Shown here one piece after another: positions 22,687-57,388 of a DNA stretch of 64,000 nucleotides. A program made the translations under genes and the position numbers. The notes beneath the pieces were generated by a model. The model did not search any database. It had not been told where the DNA came from and worked only from the letters and a program-made list of their open reading frames with translations. This DNA comes from Dioscorea cayenensis subsp. rotundata. Lineage: Eukaryota > Streptophyta > Magnoliopsida > Dioscoreales > Dioscoreaceae. The stretch lies in contig NC_052480.1 of assembly GCF_009730915.1 (NCBI RefSeq), forward strand, positions 1,736,001-1,800,000, in the 5' to 3' direction. Each line of letters opens with the position of its first letter. Within the stretch, counting starts at the first letter, position 1.

Positions 22687-25600
22687 ATGCCCGCATGGTG
22701 GCGCGCCAAATCCAAGCCTAAGGGCTCTAAGCTTCCTATCTCCGATGACCACCACCCTCGCCGCTCCGTTTCCGACCATATCCCCACGCCTAGAACCCTT
22801 GACTCTCCGGTCACTCCCAAAAGCGCTCCCGCCTCTGGTGGTGGTGGTGGTGGTGGTGGTGCTGATTTGTTTGACTTCGCCCACCCTCAACCGCTTCCGC
22901 TCCCTTCCCTCTCGGTGCCGCTGCTGGTGGCTTCGGTTCCTGGCTCGGCGTCGGCGTCCAGTGGGAGCTCCTCCGTTTCATCCGATGAGAATCCAGAACT
23001 CGCTTTCTTTCGGTATGTTGTCTTAATTTGATCACTGATTTTTTTTTTTATAATTTTTTTTCTTCTGAAATTTTCGGTTTTTATTTACTTTTATTTTGTT
23101 TAGGTTGAATGTTGATTTTTAGACTCGCGCGTGAGGTTTGGATTCTGTGAACTTCTTGTCTTTGAACAATTCTTTGCTTTAAATGAGATTTGAATGCTTA
23201 AATTTGTGGGTTCATGCTCACAAATGCTTAATTTGTTGTGTGTGAAGAAAATTTTTTTATTGCAGATGAGATCAGAGTCCTTAGATTTGCTTTTTTTTGG
23301 TGGGTTTGTTCTTTGAATTTGTAAATTTTCCAAGTATATGGATTTATTGCAGTTCCTTTATAGGTTTACTCACGGGCTAGTAGCTGGTTCCTTTGTTGGT
23401 CGAGTGGGGAAAAAAATCATCCACTCATTTTGCTTTCTAGTGTACTTCGGTTGATATGGATAATCTAATCCGCTTTTTATTGATTAGTTATTCAGAGGAT
23501 CCTTTCCTTGATATGATTGTCCATTATTTTCATTAAAAATGTTATTTTGATAGTTGAACATTTTTCTTCTGTTTGTTATATGAGGTTTTTCTGTTTGTTC
23601 CTCTTTGGAACCATGAGTTCTTATCTTTCTTTGCTGCTTTCTTTCTGCTTGCATTTAAGTTATCACCAAAAAGCAGAGCATATTTAAGTGCATGATCATG
23701 GCTCTGAATATGTCTTTGGTTTTTCTTTTTCTTTCTTGCTTGTGTATACCAGACCTTTGGAGCCCAGTAACATTCCACGGGACAGAAATGTGAAATTTGA
23801 TTCCCAAAGGCTGCAAAATGTGATAGAAGAAAACCGGGCATTCACTTATGCTCCAGTTTTAGAGCCTGTTGGAGGCTCTGATACTTCTTCCAGTAGAAGC
23901 ACCCTTTCTCATGGCAGGACCTCAAATGAGACCATTTATCATCGAAGATCAGCCAATGGTACCACTGGCCCGAGGGAACATCCATTTCATGCACCACCAA
24001 CTTCACCTATACACCAAAGAGCATTCACTGTAAGCCCAGAATCTGTGAAACTGAGGCAAGATGATCTTAAGAGTCCACCGCATCCACTTCCCCTACCTCC
24101 AGGCTCTCCCAGCTCGCCGCCCATCTCTTCGGCTTCGCGTTCTCTTCAATCACATTGGAAAAAGGGAAAACTTCTTGGCAGGGGAACCTTTGGCCATGTC
24201 TATCAAGGATTTAACAGGTGCTTGCACTTATTCTTCCTAATTCGTCAACCTCCATGAGATGTCTGTAAGTTAAGATGCTCATTTTAAAAAGTTTTATTTA
24301 GACAATATAACAAGAAGCTTAACTGAGCCGGGTGTTGATTGAAAAAAAGCATTTGCAAACTTTATATTGGATAGGTTCACACACACACATATATATTTTA
24401 TGTTTATCCCAAAGTATCTGAACTGTAAAGATTCTGTTCACATCCAAAAACAGAAAACTGTTTGCTGATTATTCTTGCATGTATAATTCAGTGAAAGTGG
24501 GCAGATGTGTGCAATTAAAGAGGTTAAAATCATCTCTGATGATGCAAATTCAGCTGAATGCCTCAGGCAATTAAACCAGGTAATTCTTTGACTTCTGTTG
24601 TCTCTTAATTTTTGTTTCTGGTATAATTGAATTGATGAAATTTAAAAACTAATTCCACTGATACTATCATTTGCACAGGAAATTGCTTTGCTCAGTCAAC
24701 TTTCACACCCCAACATTGTCCAGTACTATGGCAGTGAACTGGTAATTCTTTGTCTTGTGACTGTCTGTTTCTTAAAATGTGAGGCCTTTGAGAAACTTCT
24801 ATCATACTGCTCCAGTGGTTGTCATTTGTGGTGATTTATCGTGCAAGTTTCATATATATATATATATATTTATTTTTATTTTTTGAATAAATAATATCTT
24901 CTTCTATCATGAATGATTTTATAAATAGTTGATGACCATTTATCAAGGTGATAGTTCTTACACTTTTTATAATACACATGTGCTCTTAAACATATTGAAT
25001 TCAAAATAGAATTCTGTCTGCCTTTTATTTATTTTATTCAGTTCATGTTGTGCCAAGTCATTGTACCTTGATTTTTATTAGTTGGTTCACAAATTTCTTT
25101 TAACATTAGTCAAACCCATCTTTCTAAAAGTGTGAGGGCTTCATCTCTCAAATTTATGATTTTTCTAAATATTTATTATCAAACCATATCTGGTCCATAA
25201 ATTGATTTAGAAATTTCTTCCCACATACCATTTAAATGAAGTACAATATGAAAACTGCACACTCAAGTTGAACTTTGCACTTGTACAGGTGGATGGCTCA
25301 CTGTCTGTGTATCTTGAGTATGTTTCTGGAGGATCAATCCATAAGTTACTTCAGGAATATGGTCCTTTTGGGGAGCCTGTGATACGCAGTTATGCCGGAC
25401 AGATTCTTTCTGGGCTTGCCTACTTGCATGGCAGAAATACTGTACATAGGTATATTATGCTACTTTTATTTTCAAGTTCATTACCTGTTAGATGCTGATA
25501 ATGTTTGTGGATGGTCTGGCAGGGATATTAAAGGGGCTAACATACTTGTGGGTCCTAATGGTGAAATCAAGCTTGCTGACTTCGGCATGGCTAAACATGT

Positions 25601-27603
25601 AAGTAGTTACAAAAATAGATGTTGTTTCAACTTTATAACGAACCAAATTATATTCTTTCAATTCTATAGAAGTATCTTGGCTGTCAGTCAATTGGTTGTA
25701 ATTTGTATATTCTTATGTCTGATCCCTGTTGGTTGGTTATGTGCTTTTAATCTACAATTTTTTATTTATCAAAGTGCTGGCTTCTATCAATTTAGTTTTA
25801 ATTCTCACAATTTTCAACCCATTACAATGCCTTTGTAAAGTATGTATGTATATTTTATGTTTGCAAAATGTACCCGGCTTAGATTTTTGTCTAAATTTGA
25901 GTTTGACAATGCATGATGTACCTTATGATTTGTTTACTTATTTATATATTTAGTCCTGTCATGCACTTTATTTTGCCAGTTGGCATACTAGTATTCCTAA
26001 TATTTGGTACCAATCAATAGATTAGTGTTGGTTATTAGTCTGAACCCATTCTTACAGGCTAGTGCAGTCTGCTAATCCATAATAGGTTTTTTTCTCTATA
26101 GCTTTATTCAAATAAATGCTCCGGCTAGCCCTTGTCATCGTTAGGGAATAGAAGAAAAATCACCATTTCTAGTACTCTTTTGTCCGTGATGATGTAAAAA
26201 TCAAATAAATAAAAATAATGTTATCGTTAAGCAATTCTGAAAATGAAACATATTGATGTTGGAAGCAGCACCTTGTATGTTACAAGTCTACCAAGATGCT
26301 ATGTAGGTATTTTTCCCAGACTGTGATTGACTAAAAGATAGTTAAGCTTCTAATTTCTGTCAACTTGCAGATATCATGAGTTACTATGAGAATTTATATG
26401 ATATTCCTTTCCATCACTTGGTTTTTTATTATTTTTTTCTTCCTGACGTGTCAGATATCAGCATTTACTTCAATACGTTCTTTCAAAGGAAGTCCATACT
26501 GGATGGCGCCTGAGGTTAGCATCCTCATTTGTCACTCCTAGAGAATTTTCTTCAGAACATTACCGATACATTATATATGTAATATTTGTTTTTATGTAGG
26601 TCATCATGAATGGATCTGGCTACAACCTATCAGTTGATATTTGGAGCCTTGGATGTACCATCCTTGAGATGGCGACTTCCAAGCCTCCCTGGAGTCAATA
26701 TGAAGGGGTAGGCTATTTTCTTAATCTTGGAATATACTTCTCATAAAAAATAGATTTTCTACAAACCACTGAGATGCATGCTATTTATAGGTTGCGGCAA
26801 TATTTAAAATTGGAAATAGCAAAGATATACCTGAGATACCAGAACATCTCTCTCCTGATGCAAAGAATTTTCTGAAACTTTGTTTCCAACGGAACCCATC
26901 TGCCCGGCCTACAGCAGCTGAATTGTTGGGCCACCCATTTGTTCGAGATCAAGCAACAGCAAAAGCTGGTAAATTTAGTATTGCCGGCGACACACTCAAA
27001 TCTCCAGATAGAAGCCATGCATTGGTACAAACGTTGATATTGCTTGTGTCACTATCACCATTTTTGTTTTATCTTAGCACGTCGTAACTTACTGATAATG
27101 CATATTCAGGCCACCTTGGATTTTTCTTCCAAAAGAAGTGTATCTCCTCTCCGTGATGTAGACTATGGGATAAGACATACGGTTGGATTTCCTTCGTCTT
27201 CGCACACCAGGTATAATGATAAACTTTTTTATCACTGTTTGACATTTGCACTCCTAACTTCAGAAATTTTTTTTTTCCTTCTTTCAGTGATTTAGCTGGC
27301 TTGAGAATGAACATGTCACTGCCGGTCTCACCGTGTTCAAGTCCTTTACGACAATACAGACAGTCAAACAGAAGTTGCTTGCCGTCTCCCCCGCATCCAG
27401 CATACTCCACTGGCATAATCAATCATGGTCCGAGCAATCACTCACTCTACCCAACAAGACTGAACATCAACTTTTCGGATCCATGGCCTGATTTTCATCA
27501 ATTGAAGTTACCAACACCCTTCGACTCTCCGCTGAAGTCAGCAACCCCTTACGACTCCCCCTTGAGGTCAACACCGTATGGATCTCCACGGAAGTGTTTG
27601 TAG
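22687..27603 (+). CDS. MAPKKK3: MAP kinase kinase kinase, MAPKKK3/YODA family
   Basis: Top tier of a MAP kinase cascade: a Ser/Thr kinase that phosphorylates MAPKKs. Eleven exons (22687–23012, 23753–24217, 24492–24579, 24679–24741, 25289–25449, 25523–25598, 26455–26514, 26600–26707, 26791–27024, 27110–27210, 27288–27603) give 665 residues. The start is chosen at MPAWW, which matches the MPTWW start of Arabidopsis MAPKKK3; upstream in-frame codons lie in the leader. A Ser/Pro-rich regulatory N-terminus includes an eight-Gly run. The kinase shows the G-loop GRGTFG (251–256), Lys273 in CAIKEVK, HRDIKGAN (Asp369), DFG (387–389) and APE (411–413). The C-terminal tail carries MSLPVSPCSSPLRQ and repeated (T/S)PYDSPL/PYGSP motifs, likely proline-directed phosphorylation sites. 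The leader is CT-rich. No defect is seen. Confidence 0.95.
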
Positions 27604-38317: not shown

Positions 38318-41175
38318 TGTTGTTTCACTGATGCTAGCTTTTCATAGACAGGATCTGATAGAGCTACCAATTGGTTAGTTTTCTGATTTCTCCCCATGAT
38401 TTCCTGCTACTTGGTTTCTATATACATACAGAAGCCTTCACTGATGTTAGCTTCTCTTATACAGGAACTGATAATGCTAAAGCTGCTGCTTTAAACATGT
38501 ACACTAAGTTCTTTCCATTTCTCATTGATCACAGTAGAGCTTTCAACTTCAAAGATCTGTGTATGAATATGAGACCGTTGCTCGGCAACATTGAGATTGA
38601 TACAAGCAATAATCATTCGATAATTATTAGCGGATCCATGATTTTTTATTCAAAGGAAGTTGAACTCATGTGTCTGTAAAAGTTCACCTCCTTCGCAGAG
38701 CCGGAATGTTGTTATACATATTAACTTGTTTATGTGCTTGCACTTTTGTTCATGGTCTCATTCAAATAAGTTACATTGTCAAGATTAGGGTGCTAATGTG
38801 CTGGTTTACCAGTAAATATTTTTTTGTTGTGTGTAAATCTCAAACATATTCAATCAGGTGGACTGTTGGAAGAATTTTTGGTTCTAGCTCTGTAATTTTA
38901 ATGGGTTATACAATTTAGGATAATTATTTTTATTTTTTATTTTATTTTTTGAATAAAATGGATAAATCACGAATTTATTGAGAAAAAAAGATTTAGGACA
39001 ATTATTACTCAGTGGTATGCATGCTTTTGGTTTAAATATTATATATATATATATATATTTATATTAAATGAAGAGACCACCAATTAAAGAAAATATTGAA
39101 AAAGAGAAGAATTTAAAATTTTATCTTTTCAAGGTGTCAATTCTGTCCCTGATCAAAAATAAACTTTAACAAACTATTATTTTATTACCGGAGTGAATAA
39201 AAGGAATTTAAAATTCTCAATTATTTAAAATTTTATAATATTTATTTTAAACCAATAAAATTGCATTTGACAGAGTTACCAGTGGTCAAAGTGGATTGTG
39301 CCATGCCTTCATTATATAGGCTGCCCAGCCTTTTTTTATATATATTATATGATTTGTAGAAGAAAAAAATCCAAAAATTTTAAATTTAAACTATTATTGG
39401 AAGTATGTATAAACAAATTTTTTTTTTATAAAATAAAAGGTTGATATTTTATGCTTTATATATAATTATGTGTAAAAAAATTCAAAAATTTAAACTCTAT
39501 ATAAATATTCAAACTATCTTGCGTAATATAACTAAATTCTCACTTGTATAAATTAAAGTATACACTAACATCAAAAATAATTTTTATATATTTCTATATA
39601 AATAGTAATACAAGCATTATCCTCCTGCTTTCGTTAATGTATTTTGACCCATTTATTCAAAGGGTGACGTTGAGATCAAATATCAACCCAAAGGGAATAA
39701 AACCTAGATAAAGTCAACTACAGTCCATCAACCCTAAAGTGACACATCTTCACAAACTTTTAAAAGGATTAACTCAACCCAATTCAAACAAGACCAAATC
39801 CACAGCACCTTTTTAGCCATGCACAACAACCATCTATAGATTCTAGAACTCTACCATGCATGCTTACAAACAAGCCAAGAAGATAAGTCATAACTTTGTT
39901 CTTCTCTTCCTTCTCTTCTCCTCTTTATCTCCTCAATCCAAACTCAACCAGAGTTAGAGTCAGGGTTTGCCAATGCATGCATTCCATGCACACCAGCCAT
40001 GCATGAACCACCTATTCCTTTTATTGCCACGTTTCCTCCTCATTACATATACAGACATATATATCCTTACGCTAGATTATATTCCAAGTTTTTACTTTTT
40101 CGCCAATCAACTCTTGATGTATTGGCAATAGGTCTCCCGCTTAAGGTATTCATATCCTTGCCCAAAAAACATGTTCGAATCTTAGCTCATGTAGGATGAG
40201 GGCCAGATGTATTGAGGTATTAATTATATATTTGTGTATGGCCTGACCTAATTTGTCAACTTTATATATCAAAGAAAAAAAAACTTTTTAACTTTTGCGC
40301 CCATATTTAGTTAAAAGTATTTATCTTGTTTATCTATGCTATATAATTATTTATTCTCCTAATTCTTTGCCTTCTTGCTTAGAATTTAATCTATTCTTTT
40401 TATTTTTATTTTATTAGACTACTCAAACATATTTACATGTCAAATATATTCTAATGTTTTTTACATTTTATAGCCTACTCACGTAGTTCCTTTAATTATT
40501 ATGCCACTTCGACTTATTATAAAAACAATGACATATTATTATTGAATTTTATCTTATATATATACATATCTTAATGGTTCTATGTTTAATAGCATATATT
40601 ATCTTGTATTTTACCAAGTAAAGTTATTATTAAAAAAAAATCTATGTTTGTTTAGAAATTAAATCTGAATTTGTCTTATCTTGTAATATCAAATTCACAT
40701 TCTATTTTATTCAAGAAGTTAAACGTTACAAGGAGACAAAATTGTTTGACTATTTTATGAACCATGCCGTATTAGTTGTCATGTTATAAATGAACAATAT
40801 ATTTTGTCGTTTTATATATATAGTTTGTCGAACAATCTAACTAAAAGTAGTTTTCTATCATTACATTAATGATCAAATTAATATTTACTGATTGATTGAT
40901 TCAACTGGTCAAATTTTGTCATTAGAGCATACTATAATTTTGCATTGACGTTTTTCTATGCTTGATTGGGTAAAACAAATTAATACTCATAAAGAGAGTA
41001 TAGTGATGAAATTTATTTTATCGACATTATATTATTACAGTATTATACATAAACACTTTTCATCTTATTTAATTACCAAAATATAATTATTTAAAAAATA
41101 AGTCATTACTTAAATTCCAAAATATATAAAATGAATTAGGTGACAAACTTTACTCCATATCTACAATTACCAAAA

Positions 41176-41691: not shown

Positions 41692-42738
41692 ATGGGTGAA
41701 TTAGAAAAGGAAGTGATCATTGTTGGTGGAGGACCAGCAGGGCTTGCCACAGCTGCATGTCTCAAGAAACAATATATATCAAGCATGATAATATTGGAAA
41801 GAGAAGCATGCACTTGCTCAACATGGAAGTTGAAGACATATGATAGAGTTAACCTTCATTTAGGTAAGGATTTTTGCACCCTCCCTCACTTCCCTCACAA
41901 GAAGGGCACCCCAGTTTTCATCTCCAAATCTTGCTTTATCGATTACCTTGATGAGTACGTCGAGTTTTTCAATTTAAAGACTATGTTTAACATGAATGTG
42001 ATCTCTGCTACTTTTGATGCTGATGATGGAAAGTGGCACTTAGTATCTAAAAATACCTTTACCGAAGAAATTTACATGTATAAAAGCAAGTTTGTAGTTG
42101 TAGCCACTGGTGAAAATGCTATGAAGATGATACCGGAAATTTTTGGATTAAGTACATTTCCTGGTGAGTTCATCCACTCTTCTGAGTACAAGTCCCCGAT
42201 GAAGTTTGCCGGAAAGGATGTGCTTGTTGTCGGGAATGGTAATTCTGGTATGGAAATTGCTTATGATCTTGCAAATTCCGGTGTCAAGACCTCCATCCTT
42301 ATTCGTTCCCCGGTAATTAGTTTGATTTTTGTAATCAAACATCAATAATTAGAGATGATCAATGTTGATAGTTTTACTGCAGTTCTTGTTTGTACATGTG
42401 CAGTTTCATGTAATGACCAGGGAAATGGTACATGCTGGGATGCTTCTTTTGAAGTTCTTGCCAATAGAGTTTGTCGATAAGGTGATGATCGGTCTTTCGA
42501 AAGATTACTTTGGAGAGTTATCGAAGTATGGTATCATCATGCCGGAGAAGGGCCCTTTCATCATCAAAGCAACCACGGGCCGGTCTGCGGTAATCGATGT
42601 TGGGACAATAGGCAGTATCAAAGATGGACTTATTAAGGTATATATTTCCTTCAAATTCAAAGACTTTTGGAGGATCTTAAAAGATTCAAAGATTATTTCA
42701 CTAATTTATTCAATCAAAGTTTTCATTATTTGATGATC

Positions 42739-42774
<36 letters not shown>

Positions 42775-43177
42775 GTGTTCAAGACCACAATTGAAAAGAT
42801 TGAAGGAGATGAAGTTGTGTTCTCTGATGGAAGATCTAAGTGTTTTGATGCAATAATATTTGCTACTGGTTACAAGAGCACAGCACACAAGTGGCTCAAA
42901 GTAAAATATAAAAATGCATAAGATTATTTAATTAATTTATTATTCCCTTATTATGTTATTAATTATTAATTTTTAATTTTTAAACTAATTAGTGATTAAT
43001 TTGCAGGATGGTGAACTCTTGAATGAAGAGGGATTTCCTAAACAAAGTTTTCCAAACCATTGGAAGGGAAAGAATGGAGTTTATTGTGCTGGTCTTTCAA
43101 AGAGAGGACTTGCTGGGATAGCTGCTGATGCTCAGAACATTGCAAAGGATATCAGCACCATATTGTTGTCAAACTAA
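41692..43177 (+). CDS. YUC11-like: Flavin monooxygenase, YUCCA10/11 type (copy 1)
   Basis: YUCCA enzymes oxidatively decarboxylate indole-3-pyruvate to the auxin indole-3-acetic acid, using FAD and NADPH. Four exons (41692–42312, 42404–42637, 42775–42900, 43007–43177) encode 383 residues, the length of the short YUC10/YUC11 clade. Motifs: FAD site VGGGPAGLA (about 12–20), ATG motif VVATGEN, FMO signature [17 protein letters not shown] site [11 protein letters not shown]-terminal FATGYKS and YCAGL. All introns are GT–AG. It is the most diverged member of a local three-gene cluster and stands head-to-tail with the next copy. Arabidopsis YUC10/11 are seed-expressed; the RY-like words upstream would fit that, by inference. 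Confidence 0.93.
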
Positions 43178-43904: not shown

Positions 43905-45075
43905 ATGAAGAAGGAGGTGGTGATCATCGGAGCCGGTCCGGCAGGGCTCGCCGTGGCGGCATGTCTCAATAGCTTCTCCATACCAAACATCATATTTGAG
44001 AAAGAAGATTGCATTGCTTCTCTTTGGAAGAAGAAGGCATATGATAGACTCAAGCTTCATCTTGCCAAAGATTTCTGTTCACTGCCATTGATGCCACATT
44101 CAAAGACCACACCTACTTTCATTCCCAAGGATCAATTCATCCAATACTTAGATCATTATGCAAAGCATTTCATGATTAATCCTGTATTTTGCACTGAGGT
44201 GGAGTCTGCAAGATGTGTGATGAATGAGAGATCACACAAATGGGTTATAATGACCAGGAATAAGATCACAGGTGAGGTGCATGAACACATGTCTAACTTC
44301 TTGGTTGTTGCCACCGGAGAGAACTCTGAGGGTATCATTCCGGAGGTTGTTGGGCTTGAGAGCTTCGCCGGAGAAGTCATGCACTCATCGGAGTATAAGT
44401 CCGGTGCCGGCTTTGAAGGGAAGAGAGTTCTTGTTGTTGGGAGTGGTAATTCTGGCATGGAGGTTGCTTATGATCTCTCAAATTTTGGAGCCATGACTTC
44501 CATTTCCATACGTAGTCCGGTGTGCTTTAATTTCTTATATATTGATATAAAGTCATTAATTGAATTAGTTTAATTAATATACTATGTTGTTTATGCATAT
44601 GATACACGTATCGTTGCATGCATGCATGCATGCAGGTCCACGTGATGAGCAAAGAGATGATATATTTAGGGATGGTGCTTGTGAAGTACTTACCAGTTAA
44701 AGTGGTGGATGGTCTTCTTGTCATGCTTGCAAAATTAAAGTACGGAGATTTATCCAAATATGGGATTGTTAGACCAAAGAACGGGCCATTAACCATCAAG
44801 ATTTCAACTGGTAAATCTGCTGTTATTGACGTTGGTACTGTTCACAAGATTAAAACAGGAGAGATTAAGGTACGTGAATAGATTGATTGATTAACTAATT
44901 AAATGGTCTATAATATATATATATACTGAATATATAAACAGGTTGTGAAAGGGTTGTTGAGTATTAGAGGGAATGAGGTATTGTTCACTGATGGCAAATC
45001 ATACCATTTTGATGCTATAATATTTGCAACTGGTTATAAAAGCACTGCAAACACTTGGTTGAAGGTGATTCATAG

Positions 45076-45109
<34 letters not shown>

Positions 45110-45362
45110 TAAATGTTTTATTTATGATCAAATTGGGATATTAAATTAATATGTGGACATGCATGTATATCAAATATAGGATGGTGGCTGCTTATTAAAT
45201 GAAGAAGGATTGCCAAAGCAGAGCTTTCCAAAACATTGGAAAGGAATGAATGGAGTATACTGTGCAGGGCTTGCAAGAAGAGGATTGGATGGAGTCTCCA
45301 TGGATGCTCAAAACATTGCTAATGATATCAAGGAGCAAATTAATACAATAGCTAATGAATGA
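43905..45362 (+). CDS. YUC10/11-like: Flavin monooxygenase, YUCCA10/11 type (copy 2)
   Basis: Same predicted activity as copy 1. Four exons (43905–44519, 44636–44869, 44942–45064, 45180–45362) encode 384 residues. Motifs: FAD site [33 protein letters not shown] site [22 protein letters not shown]. It has intron positions and phases identical to copy 1 and is about 95% identical in protein to copy 3 on the other strand, with introns also alignable. Homology to copy 3 begins at the start codon region and ends just before the stop codon: here the tail is NTIANE, in copy 3 KCS. Intron 1 ends in a (GCAT)n run directly before the acceptor. A Stowaway-like MITE sits 90 bp downstream. Confidence 0.93.
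45076..45106. repeat. (TA)n microsatellite in intron 3 of YUCCA-like copy 2
   Basis: About 15 TA units directly after the exon 3 donor. Confidence 0.9.
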
Positions 45363-45451
45363 TTCATGTCTTTGTTCTGTATATATGATGTACTTGCATG
45401 TCCATAATATATATATGATCCCTAAATTTAATGTCATAAATATAATATAAA

Positions 45452-45701
45452 CTCCTTCTATTCCCAAATACTTGTTGTTAAATGATTTTATACAAAAATT
45501 AAAGATAATATTAAATTTTTTTTTCAAAATTTAGAATAAAAATGAATGATTACTAAACTATTCCATTCTTAAAAACTCCTTATTTATATAACTTAAAAAA
45601 TTAAAAAAAATAAAATTTTAAAAAATAAATAAATATGACTTTGGTACTATACAATGACAATTATTTTGAAATATAATTTTTCTTAAATAAAAATAGAAGG
45701 A

Positions 45702-45702
<1 letters not shown>
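45452..45702. mobile_element. Stowaway-like MITE (Tc1/mariner), 251 bp
   Basis: The left end ctccttctattcccaaatac and the right end aaatagaaggag are inverted matches of the Stowaway consensus terminus (CTCCCTCCGT…). The interior (acttgttgttaaatgatttt, tacaaaaattaa) also follows the family. A TA follows the right end, the expected target dinucleotide; the left side reads AA, probably mutated. No coding capacity. Confidence 0.8.

Positions 45703-45763
<61 letters not shown>
45702..45763. repeat. (TA)n microsatellite
   Basis: About 30 TA units that begin exactly at the right end of the Stowaway-like MITE, so the run probably grew from its TA target duplication. Confidence 0.95.
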
Positions 45764-45766
<3 letters not shown>

Positions 45767-45785
45767 CATCGATCCTATACACATG

Positions 45786-45900
45786 TTCACAGATTCGTAA
45801 TCTGTGAACTTTGCTCTGGGCCGTTGGATTTCAATCCAACGGTTTTGCACTTTTCAATGAACGGTAACACTGTGCTTATGAACAGTGTACAATAAAAAAG
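45786..45900. repeat. Cluster of three palindromes
   Basis: GTTCACAGATT-cgt-AATCTGTGAAC (about 45786–45810) has 11-base perfect arms. CCGTTGGATT-tc-AATCCAACGG (about 45831–45852) has 10-base perfect arms. ACACTG…CAGTGT follows near 45868–45890. The group lies between copy 2 of the YUCCA-like genes and psaN and may be the remnant of a hairpin-rich transposon end. Confidence 0.75.
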
Positions 45901-46060
45901 TGAGATAAATAGTATTTTCACAAGATTAACTCTCACTGTGCATTATCTTAATTCTACTATTGTTGTCTGTAGACGTCTGTGTAAGTCCACATAAACCCTT
46001 TTCTATATATATATATATATATATATACATATATATTTGTGGATGAGAACTGAGCAGGGG

Positions 46061-46260
46061 TATATATATGGTGCCCACCAATCTTTGGAAAATCTAAATC
46101 CCACCATTGAGAAAAGTTCTCACCTTATCCACACTCCAACCACAATCTTCTCCATTTCATCCACAACCTCAAAACTTTTTTTTCAAACAACCTCCTTCCT
46201 CTCTTTCTTTTTCCCTTTCACAAACACACTCAAATTTCTAAGTGTTCTCAAGCTAGAGAC
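46061..46260 (+). promoter_or_regulatory. psaN promoter/leader region
   Basis: tatatatatgg (46061–46071) could serve as TATA box. caccttatcc (46121–46130) contains the I-box core GATAAGG on the other strand, an element typical of light-regulated photosynthesis genes, though it would lie downstream of that TATA. The rest is CT/CA-rich leader up to the ATG. Confidence 0.4.
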
Positions 46261-46943
46261 ATGGCTGCAATGAACTCTAGTGTCTTAGCTTGCAACTATG
46301 TGCTATCTAGTGGTTCAGACATGAGTTTGAAGCTTGCTTCAATATCATCTCCTCCAGTTACTACTAAGCTGCTCGTTATCAAAGCTCAACAAGCTCACAC
46401 CGTCGTCGAGACAAAGAAAACCAAAGGAAGTGAAGGAAGAAGAGTGGCACTTCTATTCCTGGCTGGTGCTCTCTTTTCGGCCTCGACTTCGTCGGCAAAT
46501 GCTAGCATCTTCGATGAATATCTTGAGAAAAGCAAAGCTAATAAGGTAAGTTCTATTTGCATGCTTTCATTAGAAATGGTATTAGAGCTTGAATCTTTGT
46601 GAATTTTTTTTATGAAGGAATTGAATGATAAGAAGAGGTTGGCTACTACTGGAGCAAACTTCGCACGTGCATATACTGTGGAGTTTGGCACGTGCAAGTT
46701 CCCGGAGAATTTCACTGGATGTCAAGATCTTGCTAAACAGAAGGTATGAGATAATTAATCAACTTTATAATTAATATGCATTTAAATGATGTAATTAGTG
46801 TTGAAGATCTCGCTAATTATCATGTTTTTTTTCTTTGTTTTTTGGTGTTGTAGAAAGTGCCATTCATCAGTGATGATTTGGAGATTGAATGTGAAGGAAA
46901 GGATAAGTTCAAGTGTGGATCAAATGTTTTCTGGAAATGGTGA
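46261..46943 (+). CDS. psaN: Photosystem I reaction centre subunit N, chloroplastic
   Basis: PsaN is a small lumenal subunit of photosystem I that helps plastocyanin dock to the core. Three exons (46261–46545, 46618–46743, 46854–46943) encode 166 residues, near the 171 of Arabidopsis. The first ~80 residues form a bipartite transit peptide: MAAMNSSVL start, basic stretch EGRR, hydrophobic VALLFLAGALFSAS and a processing site near SANA. The mature protein starts about SIFDEYLEKS and contains ELNDKKRLATTGANFARAYT, FGTCKFPENFTGCQDL and ends CGSNVFWKW, with four conserved cysteines. It sits between two inverted YUCCA-like genes, which has no functional logic and reflects duplication around it. 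Confidence 0.96.
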
Positions 46944-47279
46944 TCAACAACTTAATTTACTTTAATGTAATGTAATGTAATCAATTTTATTTTCTTGTTG
47001 TAATAAATTAATTTACTCTCAATTTGAATCTTCATGCATAGGCTGTGAGTAAAAAATTTTCTATCATTTATCTATGAATTAATTTGCATGTTAAGCACCT
47101 GTTGAATTTAATGGATTACCTTGTACGTACATAACTGACTAAACAAATTAATTATGGTAAAATCTATGATGAGGAAGGTGATATTCAAACTCAATTTTGT
47201 TAAGATGTAAAGGAACACCATTTATTTAATTTGATTCCATAACGAAATTAAGCTTCAAACACATCACACCACAAAAAGC
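46944..47279. other. psaN 3' region facing YUCCA-like copy 3
   Basis: Tail-to-tail spacer holding both 3' UTRs. A short atgtaatgtaatgtaat run lies near 46964. Nothing else seen. Confidence 0.5.
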
Positions 47280-47660
47280 TTAGGAACACTTAATTTGCTC
47301 CTTGATATCATTAGCAATATTTTGAGCATCCATGGAGACTCCATCCAATCCTCTTCTTGCAAGCCCTGCACAGTATACTCCATTCATTCCTTTCCAATGT
47401 TTTGGAAAGCTCTGTTTTGGAAATCCTTCTTCATTTAATAGGTAGCCACCATCCTATGATGTACATGTCCACATTTTAATATCCCAATTTGATCATAATA
47501 AAGCATTTAATTAAGTATATAAAAACTATGAATCACCTTCAACCAAGTGTTTGCAGTGCTTTTGTAACCAGTTGCAAACACTATAGCATCAAAATGGTAT
47601 GACTTGTCATCTGTGAACACCACCTCATTCCCTCTAATGCTCAACAACCCTTTCACAACC

Positions 47661-47692
<32 letters not shown>

Positions 47693-48711
47693 GTGTATAA
47701 ACATAAGCACATTTAATTAATCAATTAATCAATCTATTTATCCATGCACGTACCTTAATCTCTCCTGTTTTGATATTGTGAACAGTACCAACATCAATGA
47801 CTGCAGATTTACCAGTTGATATCTTATTGGTTAATGGCCCATTCTTTGGTCTGACAATCCCATACTTAGATAAATCTCCATACTTCAATCTTGCAAGTAT
47901 GACAAGAAGGACATCCACCAGCTTAACTGGCAAGTATTTCACAAGCACCATCCCTAAATATATCATCTCTTTGGTCATCACGTGGACCTGCATGCATGCA
48001 TGCATGCATGCGATACGTGTATTATATATATGCATAAACATCATAATTTAACTAATTCAATTAATGACTTTTTATCAATATATAAGAAAAGCACACCGGA
48101 CTACGTATGGAAATGGAAGTCATGGCTCCAAAGTTTGAGAGATCATAAGCAATCTCCATGCCAGAGTTACCACTCCCAACAACAAGAACTCTCTTCCCTT
48201 CAAAGCCGGCGCCGGACTTATACTCCGATGAGTGCATGACTTCTCCGGCGAAGCTCTCAAGCCCAGCAACCTCCGGGATGATACCCTCAGAGTTCTCTCC
48301 GGTGGCAACAACCAAGAAGTTGGACATGTGTTCATGCACCTCACCTGTGATCTTATTCCTGGTCATTATAACCCATTTGTGTGATCTCTCATTCATCACA
48401 CATCTTGCAGACTCCACCTCAGTGCAAAATACAGGATTAATCATGAAATGCTTTGCATAATGATCTAAGTATTGGATGAATTGATCCTTGGGAATGAAAG
48501 TAGGTGTGGTCTTTGAATGTGGCATCAATGGCAGTGAACAGAAATCTTTGGCAAGATGAAGCTTGAGTCTATCATATGCCTTCTTCTTCCAAAGAGAAGC
48601 AATGCAATCTTCTTTCTCAAATATGATGTTTGGTATGGAGAAGCTATTGAGACATGCCGCCACGGCGAGCCCTGCCGGACCGGCTCCGACGATCACCACC
48701 TCCTTCATCAT
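47280..48711 (-). CDS. YUC10/11-like: Flavin monooxygenase, YUCCA10/11 type (copy 3, inverted)
   Basis: Same predicted activity as copies 1 and 2. Four exons on the minus strand (48097–48711, 47754–47987, 47537–47659, 47280–47453) encode 381 residues. Motifs: [50 protein letters not shown]. Exon lengths equal those of copy 2 except the last. Against copy 2 the protein differs at about 4 of 205 residues in exon 1, 7 of 78 in exon 2 and 3 of 41 in exon 3. The first ~370 coding bases show no difference by eye. The gene is open and looks functional. Its upstream flank does not resemble that of copy 2, so promoters differ. Confidence 0.93.
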
Positions 48712-56182: not shown

Positions 56183-57388
56183 CTACATTGCATTATAGAA
56201 ATTACAAACCCCTGGATCTTCAGCCCACACACTCCTCAGCAACTTCAACAAAGCTCTAGCCTTTGCCTTAGCCTTAACACCACACTGGCTTTGCAGCAGC
56301 AACAGCAATTGCTTCAACACTCCGGCATTCACCGCTTCTGCTCGCACACCCATTGTCTCACAACACATGATCAGCAGCGCTCCAACCGCGTGCTCGCTCG
56401 CCTCATGATCAGAATTCACCACAAAAACCATCTTCACCAATACCCTGACCGCATTCACGTTCATCAACAATGACTTCCTTCCGGCATCCACTACTAACAA
56501 AGCCTCAATACTAGCCAATGCTTGTGAGGCATTTCGTTGAACGCTGCATGATAAATATGAAAAAAGCCCGTCGATCGCTCCTTCTTCTACTAAATTGCTA
56601 CGGTTGGCTTCTAACATACATATACCGTATACGGCTCTCACCGCAGCCTCCATTGCCCAGATACCAGTACTTGAACACAGAAGGGAAACCAACACTTGCA
56701 AAACCTTTTGTGATTGTCCCATGGCTAGACACACTTGTCTGGTCACTGGACTTGAAGCTATTGTCTCTATAAGAGTACACAAACAAGTCTTGATCTTCAC
56801 ATTGCCTTGATCCAACATAATTCCCAATGAAGCCAAACAAGACTCATTCTTGAGTATGTTCAAGAACTCTGAATGCTTTTCAGGTGATAAACTCAAGATA
56901 CAATCAAGAGCTACTTCAATGAACAACTCTGGATATGTAGTAGTAGTTGTTGTTGTTAATTGAGGTGTTTGAAACAAGAAGTCTAGTAACAATGGAAAGA
57001 AGCCTAATTGAATGAGAGAAGCTTGTCCATTGTCAGACTCCATTGACAAGATCCTCACTTTCTTGAGAGCCTCAAGCTTTGTCTCAATGCTGGTTTCTGC
57101 AGATTGAATGTTCAGTTTCAATGCAGCCAATGAGTTGATGAAGTTGATGGGTTTTGATTTTGTTTCATGACCGGTGAGGAGCCACCGGTCGATGAGATGC
57201 CGGAGAGTGTGGTTGGGCACAAGAGAGGTGTCATTCAGCCTCTGCATTGTCACCGGGCAAGTGTAGTGGCCTTCGGCGAGCCACCGCTCAATGCTCGGCC
57301 GATCATATGTTTGCCCAGTGCTCAAAGTCACAGGGTCTGTGAACAAGTCTAGACTAATTGGACATCTGAAGAACCAAGGAATGCTCAT
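56183..57388 (-). CDS. U-box/ARM-repeat E3 ubiquitin ligase (PUB class, intronless)
   Basis: Intronless gene of 401 residues. The U-box (about 5–78) reads FRCPISLDLFTDPVTLSTGQ, TYDRPSIERWLAEGHYTCPV and PNHTLRHLIDRWLLTG, which recruits an E2 enzyme. The remainder is an armadillo-like helical array (for example FIEVALDCILSLSP, AMEAAVRAVYGICMLEANRS and SEHAVGALLIMCCETMGVRA) that binds substrate. Size and layout match the plant PUB20–PUB31 single-exon group of about 400–450 residues, many of which respond to stress or pathogens. The exact orthologue is not clear from memory. MSIPWFF at the start is normal for the group. It converges with the PP2C gene. Confidence 0.93.
   Translation of the reverse strand: MSIPWFFRCPISLDLFTDPVTLSTGQTYDRPSIERWLAEGHYTCPVTMQRLNDTSLVPNHTLRHLIDRWLLTGHETKSKPINFINSLAALKLNIQSAETSIETKLEALKKVRILSMESDNGQASLIQLGFFPLLLDFLFQTPQLTTTTTTTYPELFIEVALDCILSLSPEKHSEFLNILKNESCLASLGIMLDQGNVKIKTCLCTLIETIASSPVTRQVCLAMGQSQKVLQVLVSLLCSSTGIWAMEAAVRAVYGICMLEANRSNLVEEGAIDGLFSYLSCSVQRNASQALASIEALLVVDAGRKSLLMNVNAVRVLVKMVFVVNSDHEASEHAVGALLIMCCETMGVRAEAVNAGVLKQLLLLLQSQCGVKAKAKARALLKLLRSVWAEDPGVCNFYNAM

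Follow-up and report, generated by a model that had tools for sequence, protein, structure and literature searches.

Run-length tests of the Sawyer type detect interlocus gene conversion between close duplicates. One of the closest described systems is the primate red/green opsin pair, in which, according to the sections of PMC3924837 drawn on here, conversion has affected parts of the gene and a divergence peak is left in one exon. Clustered ARF genes (cARFs) of Brassicaceae show concerted evolution, for which conversion has been proposed (as given in extracts of PMC11208147). Conversion among YUCCA genes is not described in the literature that we searched, as far as the available portions of these texts go, and the term 'gene conversion' is absent from the main texts of both PMC9960948 and PMC11046709. 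Here we describe two YUCCA-like genes in inverted orientation which, based on our analysis, are a candidate for such an exchange.

The inverted pair, its spacer and its outgroup

All positions refer to the window, that is, the whole stretch of 64,000 nucleotides that was analysed. Three genes for YUCCA-like flavin monooxygenases are predicted in it. Copy 2 (43905..45362, + strand, 384 aa; exons 43905-44519, 44636-44869, 44942-45064 and 45180-45362) and copy 3 (47280..48711, - strand, 381 aa; exons 48711-48097, 47987-47754, 47659-47537 and 47453-47280) form the inverted pair, and copy 1 (41692..43177, + strand, 383 aa; exons 41692-42312, 42404-42637, 42775-42900 and 43007-43177) serves as the outgroup. 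The frame is open in all three. The FMO-like domain (Pfam PF00743) scores above its curated cut-off in each copy (E-values of 7.4e-25, 8.6e-30 and 2.5e-29 for copies 1, 2 and 3). Each product also carries the GxGxxG motifs for FAD and NADPH binding, the FMO-identifying FxGxxxHxxxY and the ATG-containing motif (ATGY), as these YUCCA motifs are defined in parts of PMC4746583 and PMC9960948.

The first-pass annotation had proposed a common exon layout and alignable introns for copies 2 and 3, and both proposals hold. There are four exons in each gene, the first three of equal length (615, 234 and 123 bp) and the last of 183 bp in copy 2 and 174 bp in copy 3, and the introns align with 12-17% difference. 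Judged from these models, the two genes are intact, four-exon YUCCA-like duplicates that face in opposite directions on either side of psaN. From this layout the first-pass annotation suggested that the psaN segment may be prone to inversion.

The gene between them, psaN (photosystem I subunit N; 46261..46943, + strand), is modelled with exons at 46261-46545, 46618-46743 and 46854-46943. An acceptor for its second exon at 46615 would keep the frame equally well, and an AG is present at 46618. Residues 1-166 of the product match residues 1-170 of PDB chain 2wsc_N over the full length (E 4.4e-71).

An identical tract in exon 1 and what could explain it

A first part of exon 1 free of any difference, silent sites included, had been noticed by eye and is borne out by global alignment, the list of differences and BLAST. 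Positions 43927..44293 of copy 2 (+ strand) and 48323..48689 of copy 3 (- strand; 48689-48323 in reading order) are identical over 367 bp, corresponding to codons 8-130 in the FAD-binding half of the enzyme. None of the 74 synonymous and none of the 289 nonsynonymous sites in the tract has changed between the two copies. At the rate of all downstream codons, the tract would be expected to carry about 13 changes at synonymous and 7 at nonsynonymous sites, and at the rate of the rest of exon 1 the expectation is 7 and 3. The homology 5' of the tract amounts to just 26 bp with 2 differences; 3' of the tract it continues for about 1 kb and is diverged, with 18% of synonymous sites differing.

An even spread of silent differences over the duplicate had been named beforehand as the observation that would speak against an exchange. 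We checked this point and the spread is uneven: the tract has 0 differences over its 74.8 silent sites, whereas the 429 silent sites downstream have 67.5 (Fisher p 1.1e-5). Run-length permutations point the same way. The run of 121 identical codons was reached in 0 of 200,000 codon permutations, the 129-codon run seen when only synonymous changes are counted in 32 of 200,000, and a run as long as observed in 0 of 100,000 permutations of the gene body. Within exon 1 alone, the 367-bp run was reached 282 times in 100,000 permutations. The tract also differs from the remainder of exon 1 at silent sites (Fisher p 0.012) and at all sites (p 0.001), a contrast that rests on few differences and on a border at 44293 picked post hoc.

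In our opinion, it is quite likely that a recent ectopic (interlocus) conversion replaced an early part of exon 1 in one of the two copies with the sequence of the other. What one looks for in interlocus conversion was indeed found: a run beyond chance with silent sites included, divergent homology on both sides, and an identity that constraint does not explain. Such an event would start from a DNA break at the 5' end of copy 2 or copy 3, or close to it, proceed through resection and invasion of the inverted homologue, and finish with synthesis and return of the strand, the flanks not being exchanged. Copy 1 does not tell which copy was the donor, because copies 2 and 3 are identical in the tract. 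We infer that the conversion took place in the plant rather than in the assembly, and its direction, the repair pathway and any earlier conversions are likewise inferred.

The strongest competitor is an artefact of assembly, in which the 367 bp of one locus would have been filled or polished from the other through bubble collapse, gap filling or mis-mapped polishing reads. Such a route is conceivable, but we consider it unlikely. The assembly contains both loci, their flanks cannot be aligned to each other, and the copies differ at the base immediately beyond either end of the tract (43926 on the 5' side, 44294 on the 3' side) and once more 18 bp before its 5' end (43909). Such differences on either side, together with the unrelated flanks, show that these are two loci and not one locus counted twice. 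The seven sparse differences retained just downstream would further suggest that reads this similar could be told apart in that region.

A third copy, lost or unseen, that donated to both genes, or a recent second duplication of part of exon 1, would formally leave the same pattern in two sequences. Either needs an extra player, and a BLAST search of the window with the tract finds, besides the tract, copy 3 at 100% and copy 1 at 70% over 147 bp and nothing else, which makes this scenario quite improbable.

Finally, the 5' half of exon 1 could be under constraint at silent sites or mutate more slowly than its surroundings, with no exchange at all, and the FAD-binding role of the encoded part could be cited for this. 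Such a reading is very unlikely, because the silent sites of copy 1, measured against copies 2 and 3, are at or close to saturation: between copies 1 and 2, pS is 0.72 in the tract (0.62-0.76 in later segments), 13 of 21 fourfold sites in the tract differ, and protein identity is lower there (48%) than in exon 4 (70%).

A layered divergence profile

Recent conversion is thus our preferred reading of the tract, and the remainder of the gene body suggests that it may not have been the only event. Synonymous divergence by segment along the gene runs 0, 0.10, 0.38, 0.25 and 0.10. Behind the tract lies an intermediate zone (44294..44571, + strand), comprising the rest of exon 1 and early intron 1, where 7 of 102 silent sites differ. 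The end of exon 1 had been credited with about eight differences in some 225 bp; the actual count is 7 in 226 bp. The intermediate zone is followed by a diverged middle (44572..45218, + strand) from later intron 1 to the start of exon 4, and the corresponding fitted segment, 44571-45218, differs at 11.9% of all sites. Exon 2 has seven amino-acid changes in its 78 codons, exactly as first counted, with dS of 0.38 and dN/dS of about 0.1. Its silent change exceeds that of the introns (p 0.010; p 0.052 against the diverged intron parts), and we make no claim on this excess because the alignment of AT-rich introns leans towards fewer differences.

The proposal of a sharp step in identity holds in part. 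For coding silent sites (exons only), the best break of a change-point fit is indeed at 44293 (BIC 182 vs 191 without a break). Once introns are counted, the strongest break lies at about 44571, and an extra one near 44293 is unsupported (BIC 403 for one break at 44571 vs 411); fits to all sites with as many as four segments contain no break at 44293. The break at 44571 itself leans on the poorly aligned stretch 44572-44614 and moves to 44685/44686 once that stretch is dropped. A single sharp step thus fails with introns counted.

The three-segment fit to all sites yields a second block of low divergence at the end of the homology (45219..45343, + strand; 45219-45341 by the fit), with 1 difference in 125 bp and an identical run of 95 bp (45219-45313). 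With the main tract removed, a run of this length was reached in 1805 of 100,000 permutations. The silent sites of exon 4 do not differ significantly from those of the diverged middle (p 0.23), and the longest codon run after the tract was reached in 2092 of 20,000 permutations. When exon 4 is pooled with the part of exon 1 behind the tract and this pool is compared with exons 2 and 3, p is 0.0025, for a grouping made post hoc. A second conversion tract at the 3' end is possible but weak: the all-sites fit and the 95-bp run speak for it, the exon 4 silent sites and the later codon run against it.

The profile is layered and suggests several events. With at least two levels of divergence, the pair has probably been through more than one exchange, or else a longer tract of about 640 bp has a more recent one within it. 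Beneath the latest tract there would then lie earlier conversions, from 43905 to about 44571 and perhaps at 45219-45343. Accordingly, the claim of a conversion tract stands as the best explanation of the silent-site contrast, given that copy 1 shows no conservation of silent sites there, and does not stand as a claim of one single event.

Homology between copies 2 and 3 begins 4 bp upstream of the ATG and ends shortly ahead of the stop codon, with none beyond. The flanks (500 bp on the 5' side, 330 bp on the 3' side, same strand) are unalignable, the best scores being 21.1 and 22.0 bits. Among the matches listed for longer flanks, the highest 5' scores are 25.6 bits for the same strand and 32.8 bits for the opposite strand, and the highest 3' score is 22.0 bits over both strands. 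We take these short matches to be chance in AT-rich sequence. Since the flanks cannot be aligned yet the introns differ by so little, the gene body may have undergone several rounds of conversion. One could speculate, tentatively and with considerable doubt, that conversion starting from the gene ends (strongest from the 5' end, weaker from the 3' end, least in exons 2-3) has kept the gene body alike, while promoters and UTRs, beyond its reach, diverged past recognition. If true, the plant would have two differently controlled auxin-type enzymes with one common, self-correcting N-terminal half.

The introns of copy 1, compared with those of copies 2 and 3, score no better than the best of 200 shuffles in 4 of 6 comparisons. 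Its intron 2 beats its shuffles against both copies, perhaps by way of common AT repeats.

Comparison with known systems

Dating of the pair by dS depends on the segment chosen (from 0 to 0.38), and trees built from exon 1 would mislead. As a candidate for conversion between inverted duplicates in a plant, the pair is a clean one, and because the flanks do not match, the borders of the tract are easily tested by PCR or long reads.

The predicted proteins resemble flavin monooxygenases of the YUCCA10/11 type in their domain, GxGxxG, the FMO-identifying sequence and ATGY, the clade name being that of the first-pass annotation. Cucumber YUC genes have three to five exons in the part of PMC4746583 concerned, and the four exons found here fall inside this range.

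Clustered ARF genes are, like copies 2 and 3, auxin-related plant tandem genes with proposed conversion. They differ in being another gene family, in lying in pericentromeric tandem arrays and in that the evidence comes from cross-species trees (same extracts of PMC11208147). The red/green opsins are likewise close paralogues with conversion of part of the gene; there, as the cited sections of PMC3924837 describe, introns were homogenised and an exon was held apart by selection on known residues, whereas here it is exon 1 that was homogenised. Known interlocus conversion in general is alike in its long run of identity with silent sites included, in divergent bounds and in intact neighbouring paralogues. 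Nothing fundamental is different, apart from the layered profile of copies 2 and 3, and the tract is a new instance of a known process, an ordinary kind of event.

The flavin monooxygenase genes and their neighbours

The window contains a cluster of three genes for YUCCA-like flavin monooxygenases, all of them four-exon genes with an open reading frame: copy 1 (41692-43177) and copy 2 (43905-45362) on the forward strand, and copy 3 (48711-47280) on the reverse strand. Between copies 2 and 3 sits psaN (photosystem I subunit N; 46261-46943, +), which gives a full-length match to solved PsaN chains. Each of the three proteins scores above the Pfam FMO-like cut-off and has both GxGxxG binding motifs, together with the FMO-identifying sequence FxGxxxHxxxY and ATGY, as these are defined for YUCCA proteins in passages of PMC4746583 and PMC9960948. 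The solved structures matched by copy 2 are flavin-dependent monooxygenases (best 8z12_A, E 2.7e-30); none among the best 60 of the 69 matches bears a YUCCA name. Four collinear arm pairs (I1-I4), found by an inverted-repeat search of 30001-64000, join copies 2 and 3, and recombination between the inverted arms could in principle invert the 4-kb segment holding psaN.

Elsewhere, an open frame at 56183-57388 (-), one of two with a Pfam match among the ten frames scanned, encodes a plant U-box/ARM-repeat protein (ARM_PUB and U-box), probably an E3 ligase. Another open frame, at 25383-25838 (+), contains a protein kinase fragment (Pkinase E 4e-7, narrowly missing the curated cut-off) and is probably a single exon of a larger kinase gene.

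The identical tract in exon 1

The first-pass annotation described a difference-free stretch of about 367 bp in exon 1, and the alignment and difference list bear this out almost exactly: 43927-44293 of copy 2 and 48689-48323 of copy 3 show zero differences over 367 bases, the nearest ones being at 43909 and 43926 on the 5' side and at 44294 on the 3' side. The rest of exon 1 does contain differences, seven in 226 bp rather than the roughly eight in about 225 bp first counted by eye. There are 23 more over the 234 bp of exon 2, nine over the 123 bp of exon 3 and five over the alignable 164 bp of exon 4; in the three introns 12-17% of aligned sites differ, with ten gaps. The proteins are identical at 362 of 378 aligned residues.

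Chance accounts poorly for this tract. When the 378 codon pairs (43 differing) were permuted, its 121-codon identical run was reached in 0 of 200,000 trials (longest 117), and when only synonymous changes were considered (27 codons) the observed 129-codon run was met in 32 of 200,000. The gene body has 1399 bases aligned without gaps, 84 of them different; permuting these matched the tract in 0 of 100,000 trials, and permuting exon 1 only did so in 282 of 100,000. Downstream rates predict about 13 synonymous changes and about 7 nonsynonymous ones in the tract, and the rates of the exon 1 remainder about 7 and 3; none is observed.

Two oddities lie outside the tract. In the exon 1 remainder (44294-44483) all but one of the seven differences pair a T in copy 2 with a C in copy 3; with copy 1 as reference, three of these six look derived in copy 3 and one in copy 2, with two left undecided, and the skew may be chance. 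Silent divergence in exon 2 (44636-44869; 16/54) exceeds that of the introns (38/263, p 0.010), opposite to expectation, which intron alignment bias may explain.

A layered profile and abrupt ends

Divergence along the pair is uneven, as the first-pass annotation had anticipated: synonymous divergence is 0 in the tract, 0.10 in the exon 1 remainder, 0.38 in exon 2, 0.25 in exon 3 and 0.10 in exon 4. The single sharp step that it saw holds for coding silent sites, where the best break is 44293, the border that it had drawn (rates 0 then 0.18). With introns added, however, the best break moves to 44571 in intron 1 (0.033 then 0.188), or to 44685/44686 if the badly aligned 44572-44614 is dropped, and BIC does not favour an extra break near 44293. 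The fit to all sites favours three segments (1.5% up to 44570, 11.9% up to 45218, 0.8% up to 45341), with 44293 not among the breaks. At the 3' end of the homology (about 45219-45343) lies a 95-bp identical run, which 1805 of 100,000 permutations reach once the main tract is taken out, a moderately unusual result; silent sites of exon 4 show no difference from the diverged middle (p 0.23), and a codon-run test downstream of the tract falls short of significance (2092 of 20,000). With such mixed support, this block is perhaps a separate low-divergence tract.

This profile fits a history in which an older conversion would have covered the gene start into intron 1, a newer one would have fallen inside that stretch, and perhaps a further one touched the 3' end. 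It is also possible that a single event plus chance lies behind the layers.

The homology starts about 4 bp upstream of the ATG and falls short of the stop codon by 16 bp in copy 2 and by 7 bp in copy 3. No flank homology was found in 500 bp of 5' and 330 bp of 3' sequence (best same-strand scores 21.1 and 22.0 bits), and longer flanks gave same-strand matches of at most 25.6 bits, 16-21 bp long. Flanks simulated with indel rates of our choosing scored at least 145 bits in 60/60 trials at a divergence of 0.16 per site and at least 24.7 bits in 60/60 at 0.4; the lowest trials at 0.5 and the median trial at 0.7 fell below the observed score. Either the breakpoints of the duplication fall practically on the ends of the coding sequence, or the two genes are old enough to have lost similarity in their flanks while conversion preserved it in exons and introns. 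The latter would fit the location of plant crossover hotspots at gene promoters and terminators, as stated in part of PMC5880242, if identity truly peaks at both gene ends.

Some short repeats were seen here as well. In the 3' flank of copy 2, 45481-45629 resembles 1447-1625 at the window start (inverted, about 180 bp, 65% identity, E 1e-10); both may be ancient copies of some small repeat or MITE. In the interval from copy 2 to psaN, two (AT)n tracts enclose about 240 bp (45704-46036) with short palindromes, found by eye, at 45785-45809 and 45821-45842; this looks like a TA microsatellite into which a small element has inserted. In intron 3 of copy 2, 40 bp (45076-45115) match 39032-39070 upstream at 90%, probably as shared AT-repeat sequence.

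The origin of the tract

It is possible that an assembly artefact made the tract identical. Constraint was judged with copy 1 as outgroup, leaving out the 8-codon 5' stub as too short. Compared with copy 1, both copy 2 and copy 3 have reached saturation at the silent sites of the tract (pS 0.72), much like the exon 1 remainder and exons 2-4 (0.62-0.76); 13 of 21 fourfold sites in the tract differ from copy 1, and protein identity between copies 1 and 2 is lowest there (48%, against 54-70% in other segments). On these figures neither a mutation-cold spot nor selection on silent sites explains the tract well.

Recent exchange is a good reading of the tract. Silent divergence within it has an upper 95% bound of about 4%, against a dS of 0.38 in the most diverged exon, so the last exchange was recent relative to the pair. 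Gene conversion is the best explanation for the identity, and quite likely the true one. The recent conversion tract of the first-pass annotation is supported in part: the silent identity is beyond chance and poorly explained by constraint, but the profile around it is layered. The pair is a new example of a process that is already well known.
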